From NCBI GenBank assembly GCA_030528555.1, contig JAUMYQ010000003.1:1-44716 (forward strand): a DNA stretch of 44,716 nucleotides, given 5' to 3'. This document shows positions 1 to 42,630 of this stretch, one piece after another. The notes beneath the pieces were generated by a model that was given only the letters and a program-made list of their open reading frames with translations, did not search any database and was not told the DNA's origin. Source of the stretch: Porphyromonadaceae bacterium. Its GTDB lineage: Bacteria > Bacteroidota > Bacteroidia > Bacteroidales > Porphyromonadaceae. A program made the position numbers and the translations under genes. Numbering within the stretch: the first letter of the stretch is position 1; each line of letters begins with the position of its first letter.

Positions 1-57
1 GATCTTTTTTCAAAAAGTTCGGGAAGTTTTTTTTGAAAGTTCCCGAAGATTTTTTTC
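1..57 (+). repeat. Intergenic palindromic repeat, copy 1 (cut by window edge)
   Basis: This is the right part of the element seen complete at 35125 and 42511. It holds the right arm of the first hairpin and the whole second hairpin (TTCGGGAA at 19-26, T-rich loop, TTCCCGAA at 41-48), flanked by an A-tract and a T-tract. The left end lies outside the window. Confidence 0.85.
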
Positions 58-177
58 AAGAACCGATAATGACTCTAATTATCTAGAAAAAAGATGAATA
101 GAGTTTATTCGTTTCAATGGATGTGTTGTTTGAATAAGCTAGTCAAATTTTGACTAACTCTTCTTTAGGAGTGGGGC

Positions 178-207
178 TTGCTCGTCTACAAACTTTGCTT
201 AACTTTG
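178..207 (+). promoter_or_regulatory. Promoter of the candidate RNA at 213-438
   Basis: A -33 element TTG at 178-180 is followed after 19 nt by TAACTTTG at 200-207, a full match to the Bacteroidetes -7 consensus TAnnTTTG. The predicted start is about 6-8 nt downstream, near 213, and no convincing reading frame follows. This is inferred from the consensus only. Confidence 0.6.
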
Positions 208-212
208 CTCTT

Positions 213-438
213 AGAGATAGGGACAGCAAATGGTCACAACGCTGATAGGCAGACTCTACATTTAATATACAAGTCTACGAGAAAAGCTTCTCTTCCGATG
301 GCGTGCCGTCTCGTGGCGGATTACAAAGGTCAGGGAGCTCTCAAATCCTGTCTTATCGGGGTCCTGGACTTTATCACGTTGTGACCGCTTTATAGCTAGG
401 GTTCTTAGTCTGACGCAGGCTTTGAACCCTAGTTTTTT
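213..438 (+). ncRNA. Candidate structured noncoding RNA, 6S-like in layout, unidentified
   Basis: Between a consensus promoter and an intrinsic terminator lies about 225 nt that can fold on itself. GGTCACAACG at 232-241 is an exact reverse complement of CGTTGTGACC at 377-386, and the stem continues with GATA (244-247) against TATC (372-375). Inside it are further short stems: AGACT/AGTCT (251-255/272-276), GAGAA/TTCTC (279-283/288-292), CCGAT/ATCGG (295-299/355-359) and CAGG/CCTG (331-334/347-350). The ends paired over 150 nt and the size of about 200 nt resemble 6S RNA or other Bacteroidales small RNAs, but several side hairpins do not fit a simple rod. I do not recognise RNase P, tmRNA or SRP RNA motifs. 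The 3' end would be the T-tract at 433-438, only 9 nt before the helicase start. Confidence 0.55.
396..438 (+). terminator. Intrinsic terminator
   Basis: CTAGGGTTC (396-404) pairs perfectly with GAACCCTAG (424-432). Inside it a TT/TT internal loop leads to a second stem AGTCT/AGGCT with loop GACGC, and six T residues follow directly (433-438). This is a textbook rho-independent terminator. It ends the upstream RNA rather than a protein gene, and it leaves almost no room for a separate promoter for the helicase, which may depend on readthrough. Confidence 0.8.
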
Positions 439-446
439 GGCAATTA

Positions 447-2780
447 ATGAAGAGGAATCCTATGTATGGTGAGCAATATTTAGAGGAGTTAAACGAGGCA
501 CAGCGAGCAGCGGTTACCTATATCGATGGGCCAAGCCTCGTTATCGCTGGAGCAGGTAGTGGCAAGACAAGGGTACTAGTTTATAAACTTCTTCACCTCA
601 TAGATCAAGGCTACGACCCGAGTAGGTTGATGGCATTAACCTTTACCAATAAGGCCGCTCGAGAGATGCGTGAGCGCATCCTTCAGAAAGATCCATTGGC
701 TGCCTCTCGATTACAGATGGGTACCTTTCATTCTATCTTTTGTCGTATGCTTCGAGACCATGCAGAGCTGCTGGGTTACGCACCCAATTTCTCCATTTAC
801 AATACATCCGATAGCCGCAGCCGCATCAAAGCTATTGTCAAATCCCTACAGCTGGACGACAAATACTACAAACCCAACATTGTTCATAGTCGTATTTCTG
901 CAGCAAAAAATCGGTTAATCTCGGCCTCTGCTTACGGAAATAGTAAAGAACTCGTCAAATTCGATATGCGATCCAATGTACCACGCCTATGGGAGATCTA
1001 CCTGCGCTACGAGCGAGAGCTCCGCGAGAGTAATGCGATGGACTTTGACGATCTGCTCTTTCAAACGAATGTCCTATTTCGTGATCATCCAGATGTTTTG
1101 GCTTATTGGCAGGATCGGATAGACTATCTGCTCATTGATGAGTATCAAGATACCAATCTTGCCCAGTATATGATAGCTCGACAGCTGATGCGCCATAAGG
1201 GCGCGATATGTGTTGTTGGTGATGATGCCCAGAGTATTTATTCGTTTCGAGGGGCAGACTTGCGTAATATCTTAGACTTTCAGAAGACTTTTCCCACGGC
1301 TCGTCTCTTTAAACTAGAGCAAAACTATCGCTCTACGCAGACTATCGTTCAGGCAGCTGGCAAATTGATTGCCCATAATAGAGAGCAATTACCCAAAGAG
1401 GTCTTCTCTCTTGGTGATATCGGTGACCCCATTGAGATACACGAGGCTAGCACGGCCGACTTAGAAGCCATGTGGGTTGGCAAGAGAGTGGAGGAGCTTC
1501 GAACTCAGAAGTCTAGTTCTTATGATTACTTTGCCGTACTCTATCGTACGAATGCCCAGAGCCGAATAGTTGAGCAGGTCTTTCGTCGCATGAATATTCC
1601 TTTTCGGATTTATGGCGGACACTCTTTTTTCGATCACAAGGAGATTATGGATGTGATGGCATACCTGAGGGTTGTGGTCAACATCACGGACGAGGAGGCG
1701 ATGCTTCGTATCATCAATTATCCCCGGAGAGGCATAGGCGATACTACAATTCTTAAGGTTCGGGAATACGCATCGCTAGAGGGAATAGGTTTCTATGCTG
1801 GTCTCTGCCGCTGTGCCGATGGTACAGGTGTCGCACTTAGTCGGGCAACTCAGGCCAAACTCAAGGGCTTTTTACTTTTATTAGAGGACATGAGACGGCA
1901 AGTGGATCAGTCTAATAACTTCTTCGAACTAATGAATAGCCTCATCTCTGCCACAGGTATTCCCGGTGAGTTGGCATTGGATATGACAGAGGAGGGCATT
2001 AGTCGCCAGCAAAATGTCAAAGAGCTCATATCAAGTATCGTGGAGTATGCCGAGATGACTAGCAAAGAGGGTAGAGAGCCTACTGTAAGTGGCTATCTTG
2101 GAGAGATTGCTCTGATGACAGATCAAGACAAAGATGATGATCTGGATGGCCCCAAGGTTACTGTGATGACGGCTCATGCCTCCAAAGGGTTAGAGTTTCC
2201 TCATGTATTTATTATTGGTATGGAGGAGAAGCTCTTCCCTTCTATCCGATTTGGCGATGACGATGACAATATCGAGGAGGAGCGCAGGCTCTTTTATGTA
2301 GCCATGACACGAGCAGAGCGTACCTGTCATATCGGGTATGCGCGGGAGCGTTTTTACAATGGGCGTACCGAGTTTGGTCGTCCCAGTCGCTTCTTGGGTG
2401 AGATACCTGATAGCCTCGTTCGGAGAAATAGGGCTGCTGAGAATACCAACGCTTATACAGCCAAGCGAGGGTATCATGGTTTTTCAGGCGATTCTTTAGA
2501 GCTTCCTCGTAGTTTTTCCCCTGTGTCTTTCTTGCCCAGCCAAAGTTCTTCGGGTAGTCGTAGGGTCTATGTAGGACGAAAGGCCAAGGATGAAGAGGTC
2601 GTGCAGCACGAGCGCATTGGCGATCTAACTATTGGTGCCCGAGTGATGCATCAGAGGTTTGGCCAGGGTGAGATCCTCTCATTGGAGGGGGAGGGGGGCA
2701 ATGTAATGGCTGTTGTCTGTTTTGATGGCGGAGATACTAAGAAGCTTTTGCTCCGCTTTGCTAAACTTGTTGTGCTGTAA
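447..2780 (+). CDS. pcrA: UvrD/PcrA-family ATP-dependent 3'-5' DNA helicase
   Basis: Superfamily 1A helicase acting in nucleotide excision repair and in clearing proteins from DNA in the cytoplasm. The motifs appear in the normal order: Walker A AGAGSGKTR (residues 34-42), motif Ia FTNKAAREMRER, the DExx box LLIDEYQDTN, motif III VVGDDAQSIYSFRGA, motif V MTAHASKGLEFPHV and motif VI RRLFYVAMTRAER. The last 55 residues form the Tudor-like PcrA C-terminal domain (GARVMHQRFGQGEILSLEGE...). The length of 777 residues is normal. The start could be the ATG at 447 or the one at 462 (MYGEQYLEEL), which fits the conserved N terminus equally well. The gene follows a terminator by 9 nt and stands alone. 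Choosing uvrD or pcrA as the name is a convention. Confidence 0.95.
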   Translation: MKRNPMYGEQYLEELNEAQRAAVTYIDGPSLVIAGAGSGKTRVLVYKLLHLIDQGYDPSRLMALTFTNKAAREMRERILQKDPLAASRLQMGTFHSIFCRMLRDHAELLGYAPNFSIYNTSDSRSRIKAIVKSLQLDDKYYKPNIVHSRISAAKNRLISASAYGNSKELVKFDMRSNVPRLWEIYLRYERELRESNAMDFDDLLFQTNVLFRDHPDVLAYWQDRIDYLLIDEYQDTNLAQYMIARQLMRHKGAICVVGDDAQSIYSFRGADLRNILDFQKTFPTARLFKLEQNYRSTQTIVQAAGKLIAHNREQLPKEVFSLGDIGDPIEIHEASTADLEAMWVGKRVEELRTQKSSSYDYFAVLYRTNAQSRIVEQVFRRMNIPFRIYGGHSFFDHKEIMDVMAYLRVVVNITDEEAMLRIINYPRRGIGDTTILKVREYASLEGIGFYAGLCRCADGTGVALSRATQAKLKGFLLLLEDMRRQVDQSNNFFELMNSLISATGIPGELALDMTEEGISRQQNVKELISSIVEYAEMTSKEGREPTVSGYLGEIALMTDQDKDDDLDGPKVTVMTAHASKGLEFPHVFIIGMEEKLFPSIRFGDDDDNIEEERRLFYVAMTRAERTCHIGYARERFYNGRTEFGRPSRFLGEIPDSLVRRNRAAENTNAYTAKRGYHGFSGDSLELPRSFSPVSFLPSQSSSGSRRVYVGRKAKDEEVVQHERIGDLTIGARVMHQRFGQGEILSLEGEGGNVMAVVCFDGGDTKKLLLRFAKLVVL

Positions 2781-6136: not shown

Positions 6137-6556
6137 TTAGCCTCCTGAACTAGTATATCCAGCTATTCCGAATAGCTCCTGATAATCAGAATAACATGGG
6201 AGGGATATCAGAGCGTTCTGTTATCTGGATCTTGGTGTTTTAACTATTTGTTTTCTAGGTGATTAGATTGAGTCTCGAGCGCTCCAAAAAATCTTCGGGA
6301 ACTTTCAAAAAAAACTTCCCGAACTTTTTCCAAAAAGTTCGGGAACTCCGAGAAAAATGTTCGGGAACATTTTTTCGAGTGTTCCCGATGTTTTTGTCCT
6401 CAATGGGAGGAGGATGGTTTTATAGCTTTTAAGAGCTTGCCAAGTGAGTTAGAGACATTGAATAAACTACACAGATCTTGAGCTCGTTACTCTACCAGAG
6501 ATGTTCTTTTGATCAGGTAAGCTGAAAGTTTGGTTATCTTCGTGGATTGATTTACA
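6137..6556. other. Spacer between cydB and porQ
   Basis: It contains the repeat element copy 2 at 6285-6396 and otherwise no supported gene. A weak promoter-like sequence (TATCTTCG at 6535-6542, one mismatch to TAnnTTTG) lies just before porQ. Confidence 0.5.
6285..6396 (-). repeat. Intergenic palindromic repeat, copy 2 (long form)
   Basis: Reverse orientation relative to copies 1, 4, 5 and 6. The first hairpin is a perfect 14-bp stem at 6316-6345 (TTCCCGAACTTTTT, CC, then its complement). The TTCGGGAA/TTCCCGAA hairpin lies at 6294-6323 and overlaps it. The element carries an extra third stem, TCGGGAACA (6361-6369) against TGTTCCCGA, separated by a T-rich loop. Confidence 0.85.
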
Positions 6557-14955: not shown

Positions 14956-15144
14956 GTGTAGAGGAACTGAAGCGTAGAGAGCATGTAGATAGGGTTGGTC
15001 ATGCACGTTTTTATTGTGGTCTTTTGCCATTTAGTGTAACGTAACCGTGTCAAAAGTCATCCAAGCCATTTGATTGATCTGCAGACTCTAGATATGCTCT
15101 TAATGTCTTTATATTTAGTTGTTTATGTTTTCTCTTGATTAGTT

Positions 15145-15235
15145 CAAAAAATCTTCGGGAACTTTCAAAAAAAACTTCCCGAACTTTTTCCAAAAAGTTC
15201 GGGAACATTTTTTCGAGTGTTCCCGAGCATTTTTT
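15145..15235 (-). repeat. Intergenic palindromic repeat, copy 3 (short form)
   Basis: Same orientation as copy 2. The perfect 14-bp hairpin lies at 15176-15205 and the second hairpin at 15154-15183. Compared with copy 2 it lacks about 23 nt between two GTTCGGGAAC words, as expected from deletion between direct repeats, while the outer TGTTCCCGA arm is kept. Confidence 0.85.
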
Positions 15236-15341
15236 AGAAAAGTCAAAGGGAGTTTTATAGAAGCCTTTGAGCAGGTTTTATCAGCGTATATACAAGAGGT
15301 AAATAGGCTATCCAAATTCTGCTAAGATCTACTTCTCATAC

Positions 15342-22613: not shown

Positions 22614-22720
22614 GTATACCCCATTTTTGTGCAAAATCTTCCCGATCTTTTTTCTCGGAGTTCCCGAACTTTTTGGAAAAAGATCGGGAAGTTTTTTTTG
22701 AAAGTTCCCGAAGATTTTTT
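22614..22720 (+). repeat. Intergenic palindromic repeat, copy 4
   Basis: Forward orientation, beginning GGTATACCCCATTTTTGTGC as in copy 6. The first hairpin (22661-22690) has one A/A mismatch, AAC on the left and GAT on the right. The second hairpin, TTCGGGAA-type arms around a T-rich loop, is as in the other copies apart from the ATCGGGAA start. Confidence 0.85.
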
Positions 22721-22963
22721 CGATCTAATCGGAATCTTGTTAATAGTCTTGTTGTGAGTGTTTTATGTGTTTTAGTTTATTGATAGCTGGATCCGTTATT
22801 CCGGATTTTGAGATGTTTTCCTGAAGTCTCATTGGATTTCCTCGATATTTAAGGTATAGGTAAAGCTGTTGTTCTTCGTTGATTATCCGATCAGTTTCTG
22901 TTTAGTTGAAAACAGTTTGTGAAACGTTTTCTATTTCATTCAGCTCGTCAAAGTAACAAAAGA

Positions 22964-35124: not shown

Positions 35125-35241
35125 GTACCCCATTTTTGTATGAAATGTTCCCGAACTTTTGTCTCGGAGTTCCCGATCTTTTTTCAAAAAGATCGGGAAG
35201 TTTTTTTTGAAAGTTCCCGAAGATTTTTTGTGAAAATCGGG
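35125..35241 (+). repeat. Intergenic palindromic repeat, copy 5
   Basis: Forward orientation and full length, starting GTACCCCATTTTTGTATG and ending near AAATCGGG. The first hairpin (35170-35199) is a perfect 14-bp stem in which both arms carry GATC, the compensated alternative to the GAAC/GTTC arms of copies 2 and 3. Confidence 0.88.
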
Positions 35242-35374
35242 ATATTTCGTAATTGATTATATGTAAGTGTGTTATGGATTCCTTCTAAGAAACTATGAAC
35301 TGTCTGGTTATTGAGCTGAGGTTCTAGGTAATACCTGCCATTTTTGCCCTAACCCTCGTTTCTTACTCTTTTAC

Positions 35375-42510: not shown

Positions 42511-42630
42511 GTATACCCCATTTTTGTGCAAAATGTTCCCGATCTTTTTTTCTCGGAGTTCCCGATCTTTTTGGAAAAAGTTCGGGAAGTTTTTTTTGAA
42601 AGTTCCCGAAGATTTTTTGTGTAAATCGGG
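42511..42630 (+). repeat. Intergenic palindromic repeat, copy 6
   Basis: Forward orientation, full length, from GTATACCCCATTTTTGTGC to AAATCGGG. The first hairpin at 42559-42588 has one T/T mismatch (GATC left, GTTC right), so it is an intermediate between copies 2/3 and copy 5. The second hairpin is intact. Confidence 0.88.

Follow-up and report, generated by a model that had tools for sequence, protein, structure and literature searches.

6S RNAs fold into a rod that resembles an open promoter. The housekeeping RNA polymerase holoenzyme is captured by this rod and is set free again by the synthesis of product RNAs. The 6S RNA of E. coli is the topic of PMC6749105 (as excerpted). For the Bacteroidales, excerpts of two papers report a Bacteroidales-1 RNA, published in 2010 (PMC2864571) and annotated in 2018 in three P. 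gingivalis strains, each with a single copy (PMC5771137); Rfam holds the family as RF01693, under the name '6S-Bacteroidales RNA suggested'. In the excerpted text of PMC7366714, dRNA-seq of B. thetaiotaomicron is reported to yield a 6S RNA, possibly that of the RF01693 locus, together with product RNAs of two classes, and the consensus of the primary sigma factor, sigma ABfr, is given as TAnnTTTG at -7 and TTTG near -33. A Porphyromonas 6S RNA is not described in the excerpts of PMC5581868, PMC7160235 and PMC9723704, and a literature search returned no paper joining the terms 6S RNA, Porphyromonas and pRNA.

Here we analyze a locus near the start of a contig from a Porphyromonadaceae genome; the window is the whole stretch of 44,716 nucleotides, positions 1 to 44,716. 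The genus is taken as Porphyromonas, since of six named relatives of its pcrA, 59-62% identical, five belong to it (COT-290, COT-239, oral taxon 278, P. pasteri and P. catoniae), the sixth being a Porphyromonadaceae MAG. We conclude that this Porphyromonas species very probably has its single 6S RNA gene here, equipped with a housekeeping promoter of its own, of the sigma ABfr type, and its own terminator (Table 1). The RNA would fold as a closed rod in which a closing stem is followed by an inner helix with a bubble and then by a terminal hairpin. If it behaves like 6S RNAs elsewhere, this rod would mimic an open promoter, bind the housekeeping RNA polymerase holoenzyme and keep it inactive in slow growth, and would be released once the polymerase copies the RNA template into short product RNAs. 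That the RNA is transcribed in this species, binds the polymerase and is copied into product RNAs is inferred. The locus leaves the general picture of 6S RNA unchanged; it supplies the 6S RNA gene for a Porphyromonas genome in which the default Rfam scan gives none.

Table 1. Features of the probable 6S RNA locus and its neighbor (window coordinates)
Feature	Position	Strand	Remarks
Promoter, Bacteroidetes primary sigma type	178..207	+	TTG 178-180, 19-nt spacer, TAACTTTG 200-207
Primary transcript (predicted)	212..438	+	from promoter, stem and terminator
6S-Bacteroidales (Bacteroidales-1, RF01693) RNA body	226..392	+	RF01693 at 232-392; genus model R1 at 226-392
Closing stem P1, 5' arm	232..241	+	GGTCACAACG; exact pairing with 377-386
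Inner helix H2, 5' arm	252..256	+	GACTC; most relatives AAACTC
Terminal hairpin	292..332	+	conserved GGATTACAAAGG on 3' side; covariation
Inner helix H2, 3' arm	359..363	+	GGGTC; most relatives GAGTTT
Closing stem P1, 3' arm	377..386	+	CGTTGTGACC; exact pairing with 232-241
Intrinsic terminator	396..438	+	9-bp outer stem CTAGGGTTC 396-404 / GAACCCTAG 424-432, inner stem, T6 (433-438)
pcrA-like UvrD helicase	462..2780	+	neighbor, outside the RNA gene; UvrD-helicase Pfam domains

Family identity and distribution

At gathering level, an Rfam scan of the whole window gave no match. At E-value level, positions 150-460 matched RF01693 over its full length (model 1-179 of 179) with 59.9 bits and an E-value of 1.8e-9, 0.1 bit short of the 60 bits at which the gathering cut-off stands; the family is among those that the sequence-only reading had named for an Rfam comparison. 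This was the only significant Rfam match in that interval, the other row being 6S-Flavo RNA (RF01685), and throughout the 1.78-Mb genome RF01693 matched the window locus alone at E-values up to 10. A covariance model of our own (R1), built with the covariation-supported structure from 24 aligned genus sequences that exclude the window and each score above the RF01693 cut-off, scored the window locus at 80.8 bits (E 1.9e-18); its next match in the genome reached 13.1 bits (E 1.99; 150 of 224 candidates scored). R1 also matched every one of the 26 loci fetched from outside the genus, two (L058, cut by a contig end, and L060, at 24.8 bits) only in part; these loci were originally located by RF01693, and the model is thus independent of the window and not of Rfam.

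Besides the full-length match and a promoter box common to 48 of 50 sequences (below), the window shares with its RF01693 relatives the conserved blocks ACTC, CGAG, ATGGCG, GGATTACAAAGG, CTCAAATC and CGGAG/CGGGG. It differs from them in H2, where AAACTC/GAGTTT is replaced by AGACTC/GGGGTC, and in a short terminal loop. Judged by sequence and structure, the locus is a diverged but ordinary member of the Bacteroidales-1 / 6S-Bacteroidales family RF01693. RF01685 resembles the locus weakly, in the bubble and hairpin, with a score of 20.6 bits (E 1.5) that lies far under that family's cut-off of 85, so that by score the locus is no member. The 6S RNA of proteobacteria and firmicutes (RF00013, ssrS; cut-off 46.4 bits) is alike in presumed function and in the overall rod with a bubble; it had no match at E <= 0.001 in any of the 26 genus genomes, the window's own included, with 5 of 14 controls matched. 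A search of the same 26 genomes with RF01685 gave no match, but as the control genomes were likewise matchless this result carries no information.

RF01693 is present once per genome in 56 of the 119 genomes searched, the window's own included: 25 of 26 in the genus, 11 of 12 in the sister genus and, under strict filters, 20 of 81 in the rest of the order. The single copy and near-universal presence expected of a 6S-class RNA are therefore found in the genus and the sister genus, and the two family genomes lacking a match are 54% and 53% complete. (A DNA-level homologue search of 61 genomes, with nine matched, was too shallow and was abandoned.) Five other family genomes (G026, G028, G030, G033 and G035) have one match each at 57.6-61.8 bits, and G000, G026, G030 and G033, from two genera, have full-length matches at 57.6-59.9 bits, below 60. 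For this family the RF01693 cut-off thus seems a little too high, and it misses likely members. The sequence-only reading had left the RNA as either the 6S RNA of its lineage or a small RNA not yet described: the first is supported, as Bacteroidales-1, by the Rfam match, the genus model, covariation, promoter conservation and the near-universal single copy in the genus genomes searched, and the second finds no support.

Fold, terminator and covariation

The same reading had proposed a promoter TTG-N19-TAACTTTG, an exact 10-bp end-to-end stem, a two-part terminator, and the lack of a convincing protein frame. The promoter is present where it was placed; the stem pairs exactly, and further pairs form inside it; the terminator is confirmed by its outer and inner stems, its T6 run and the fold of 394-440 (z -6.41, with 0 of 200 shuffles equally stable). 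The fold of 212-440, terminator included, has a free energy of -79.7 kcal/mol (z -3.76; again 0 of 200 shuffles equally stable). No protein is supported. The longest frame of at least 20 aa over the locus has 68 aa (178-384) and starts at the promoter's own TTG; it was rejected as coding on account of the many indels in the alignment of homologues. A strict terminator pattern lies downstream of the RNA in 24 of 49 sequences (shuffled mean 2.6, maximum 5), a count made without G018, where the contig ends at the RNA, and without G115, where it ends inside.

The window holds eight exact 10-bp inverted repeats with a span of 130-200, so a repeat of this kind is not rare on its own, and it is covariation, not the bare stem, that decides. 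Five weak matches (G044, G071, G082, G102 and G116) among the 56 of RF01693 were left out, and the other 51 sequences were used or fetched; omission of the truncated G115 from the alignment and from the promoter and terminator counts left 50, aligned with MAFFT, their ends set by the Rfam match and not by pairing. RNAalifold recovered the closing stem unaided from this alignment. In the P1 core, double changes occur in all eight pairs and 94.1% of cells are paired over the 50 sequences, which is the conservation by compensatory changes on which the sequence-only reading had staked its RNA. P1 and H2 together (eight and six pairs) have 96.2% of cells paired, compared with 29.5-50.2% in slid versions, and their 69 double-change cells, which count sequences and not independent events, stand against a shuffled mean of 19.2, with 0 of 500 shuffles as high.

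H2 is 99.0% paired over the 50 sequences and mostly invariant, and for this reason its covariation is of little weight; one double change (A-U to G-C) is seen in the window, G-U forms occur in two relatives, and the outermost pair (A251, C364) is missing from the window. In the terminal hairpin every one of the 11 pairs shows double changes, and 91.5% of cells are paired over the 50 sequences; in the window its three outermost aligned pairs fail to form. Within the genus alone (24 sequences), double changes were seen in five of the eight P1 pairs and none of the six H2 pairs, 95.0% of cells were paired, and one of five covariation measures was matched by 10 of 500 shuffles. A long closing stem, an asymmetric bubble and a terminal hairpin, the structural marks of 6S RNA, are thus present by covariation and fold. 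The consensus structure printed for RF01693 pairs the terminal hairpin only and does not contain P1; the covariation reported here adds support for the closing stem missing there.

Two pairing partners are available to the 3' GAGTTT block, the 5' AAACTC, as in H2, and the conserved CTC that opens CTCAAATC (alignment columns 41-46, 176-178 and 200-205); RNAalifold prefers this CTC for three pairs. It is possible, as an inference from these pairings, that the block acts in 6S-Bacteroidales RNA as a two-state switch on product RNA synthesis.

Promoter, predicted transcript and proposed 6S function

The box TAACTTTG is the sole exact TAnnTTTG on the + strand of positions 1-470. In 48 of 50 sequences, the window counted, an exact TAnnTTTG lies no more than 100 nt upstream of the RNA (P1) (shuffled mean 3.3, maximum 8), the two misses being G040 and G065. 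The transcript would start near 212, as placed from the -7 box, and end in the T run of the terminator; the mature RNA is probably about 232-390. A generic promoter and terminator scan of positions 1-1000, with a tool that looks for sigma-70 hexamers and loops of 3-8, detected neither element. As a separate observation, the promoter region contains a tandem ACTTTGCTTAACTTTGCT (190-209): a further -7-like box, the imperfect AAACTTTG, lies at 190-197, 10 nt 5' of TAACTTTG.

The bubble was also examined for mimicry of the promoter. On the expected template strand TAnnTTTG-like sequence is not in excess, with matches of at least 5 of 6 in 22 of 50 sequences vs 18.2 in shuffled ones, so that the promoter-like sequence looked for in a 6S RNA was not found there. 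Other 6S RNAs likewise show weak sequence mimicry, and for this reason it is not treated as strictly defining. For the 3' strand read as its reverse complement, the count was 14 of 50 vs 8.0; these matches are mostly the conserved CAAAT, which does not contain the TA of the box, and were set aside as no evidence.

The negative mimicry result would sit comfortably with a conserved Bacteroidales small RNA that is homologous to RF01693 and has a role other than that of 6S, such as pairing with mRNA or binding another protein, and the function of RF01693 does rest on resemblance (hence 'suggested') and on the Bacteroides transcript data. We nevertheless regard such a role as very unlikely: nearly all genus genomes searched carry exactly one copy, the RNA is a closed rod with a bubble, none of these genomes has an RF00013 match, and product RNAs are reported, in the excerpts cited above, for B. 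thetaiotaomicron.

Gene neighborhood and contig start

Behind the 6S RNA gene lies a helicase gene whose best NCBIfam model is pcrA (TIGR01073), at 698 bits and so under the curated cut-off of 911.2. ATG 462 is preferred to 447 as its start in view of the upstream AGAGGA and the N-termini of relatives, which leaves about 23 nt between the end of the terminator and the start codon, with no exact TAnnTTTG in between. These two facts would fit a folded RNA and terminator that serve as a cis-acting leader or attenuator and regulate transcription into the helicase gene, a reading to which we give a very slim chance in view of the comparison between genomes. Among 60 RNA loci searched (each with about 1.5 or 5 kb of flank as far as the contig reached, the contigs of G018 and G115 ending at the RNA), pcrA was found only in L001 and L002, both the window's own. 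Conversely, 31 pcrA loci were examined, orientation lacking for L069 and L073, and none of the 30 from relatives (with flanks of about 1.5 kb for 24 of them and of 3 kb for the other 6) carries the RNA; in several relatives pcrA appears, from the sequences, to lie directly behind another reading frame.

The neighbors of the RNA vary between lineages. With frames of at least 80 aa called mechanically, the largest shared neighbor cluster comprises four genomes, on which ground conserved synteny was rejected, and the nearest downstream frames mostly form one-genome clusters. Of the downstream frames, 22 share the strand of the RNA and 26 run against it, and in the close relative G001 the neighbors are DJ-1/PfpI and alpha-amylase family proteins. 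Promoter box, terminator pattern, shifting neighbors and mixed downstream strands make the RNA look like a free-standing gene, and the own Bacteroidetes-type promoter and terminator that characterize an independent RF01693 gene are both present in the window.

The adjacency of 6S RNA and pcrA looks particular to this species and could conceivably be a matter of assembly. Given that no exact promoter box lies between terminator and ATG 462, RNA termination may, as the sequence-only reading had raised, control pcrA by way of read-through. Helicases of the UvrD family are known to act on RNA polymerase, and a comparable coupling by read-through exists between E. coli ssrS and the gene behind it. 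One may thus imagine that a rearrangement put a promoterless pcrA behind the 6S terminator and that read-through sets the level of PcrA, coupled to growth phase, although we hold this to be improbable. That there is no RNA gene, and that the promoter-like string, the inverted repeat and the terminator merely line up by chance, as the eight repeats of similar span in the window might suggest, has a negligible probability given the Rfam and genus-model E-values and the covariation.

T-rich, hairpin-forming arrays with a period of 22 nt, composed of TTCGGGAA/TTCCCGAA blocks, occupy window positions 1-77, 6277-6397 and 15137-15257, and further arrays of the same repeat lie at 22622-22742, 35131-35251 and 42519-42618. 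About 60 match rows were obtained in the window's own genome, some of them at contig starts, and the repeat is the probable cause of the break in the contig a short way 5' of the 6S gene. Positions 1-170 had no match among plasmids, and within the genus the repeat is absent from 24 of 26 genomes, the relative G016 having four weaker matches. In kind it resembles the BrickBuilt/MITE repeats of P. gingivalis that are named in the excerpts of PMC5771137.
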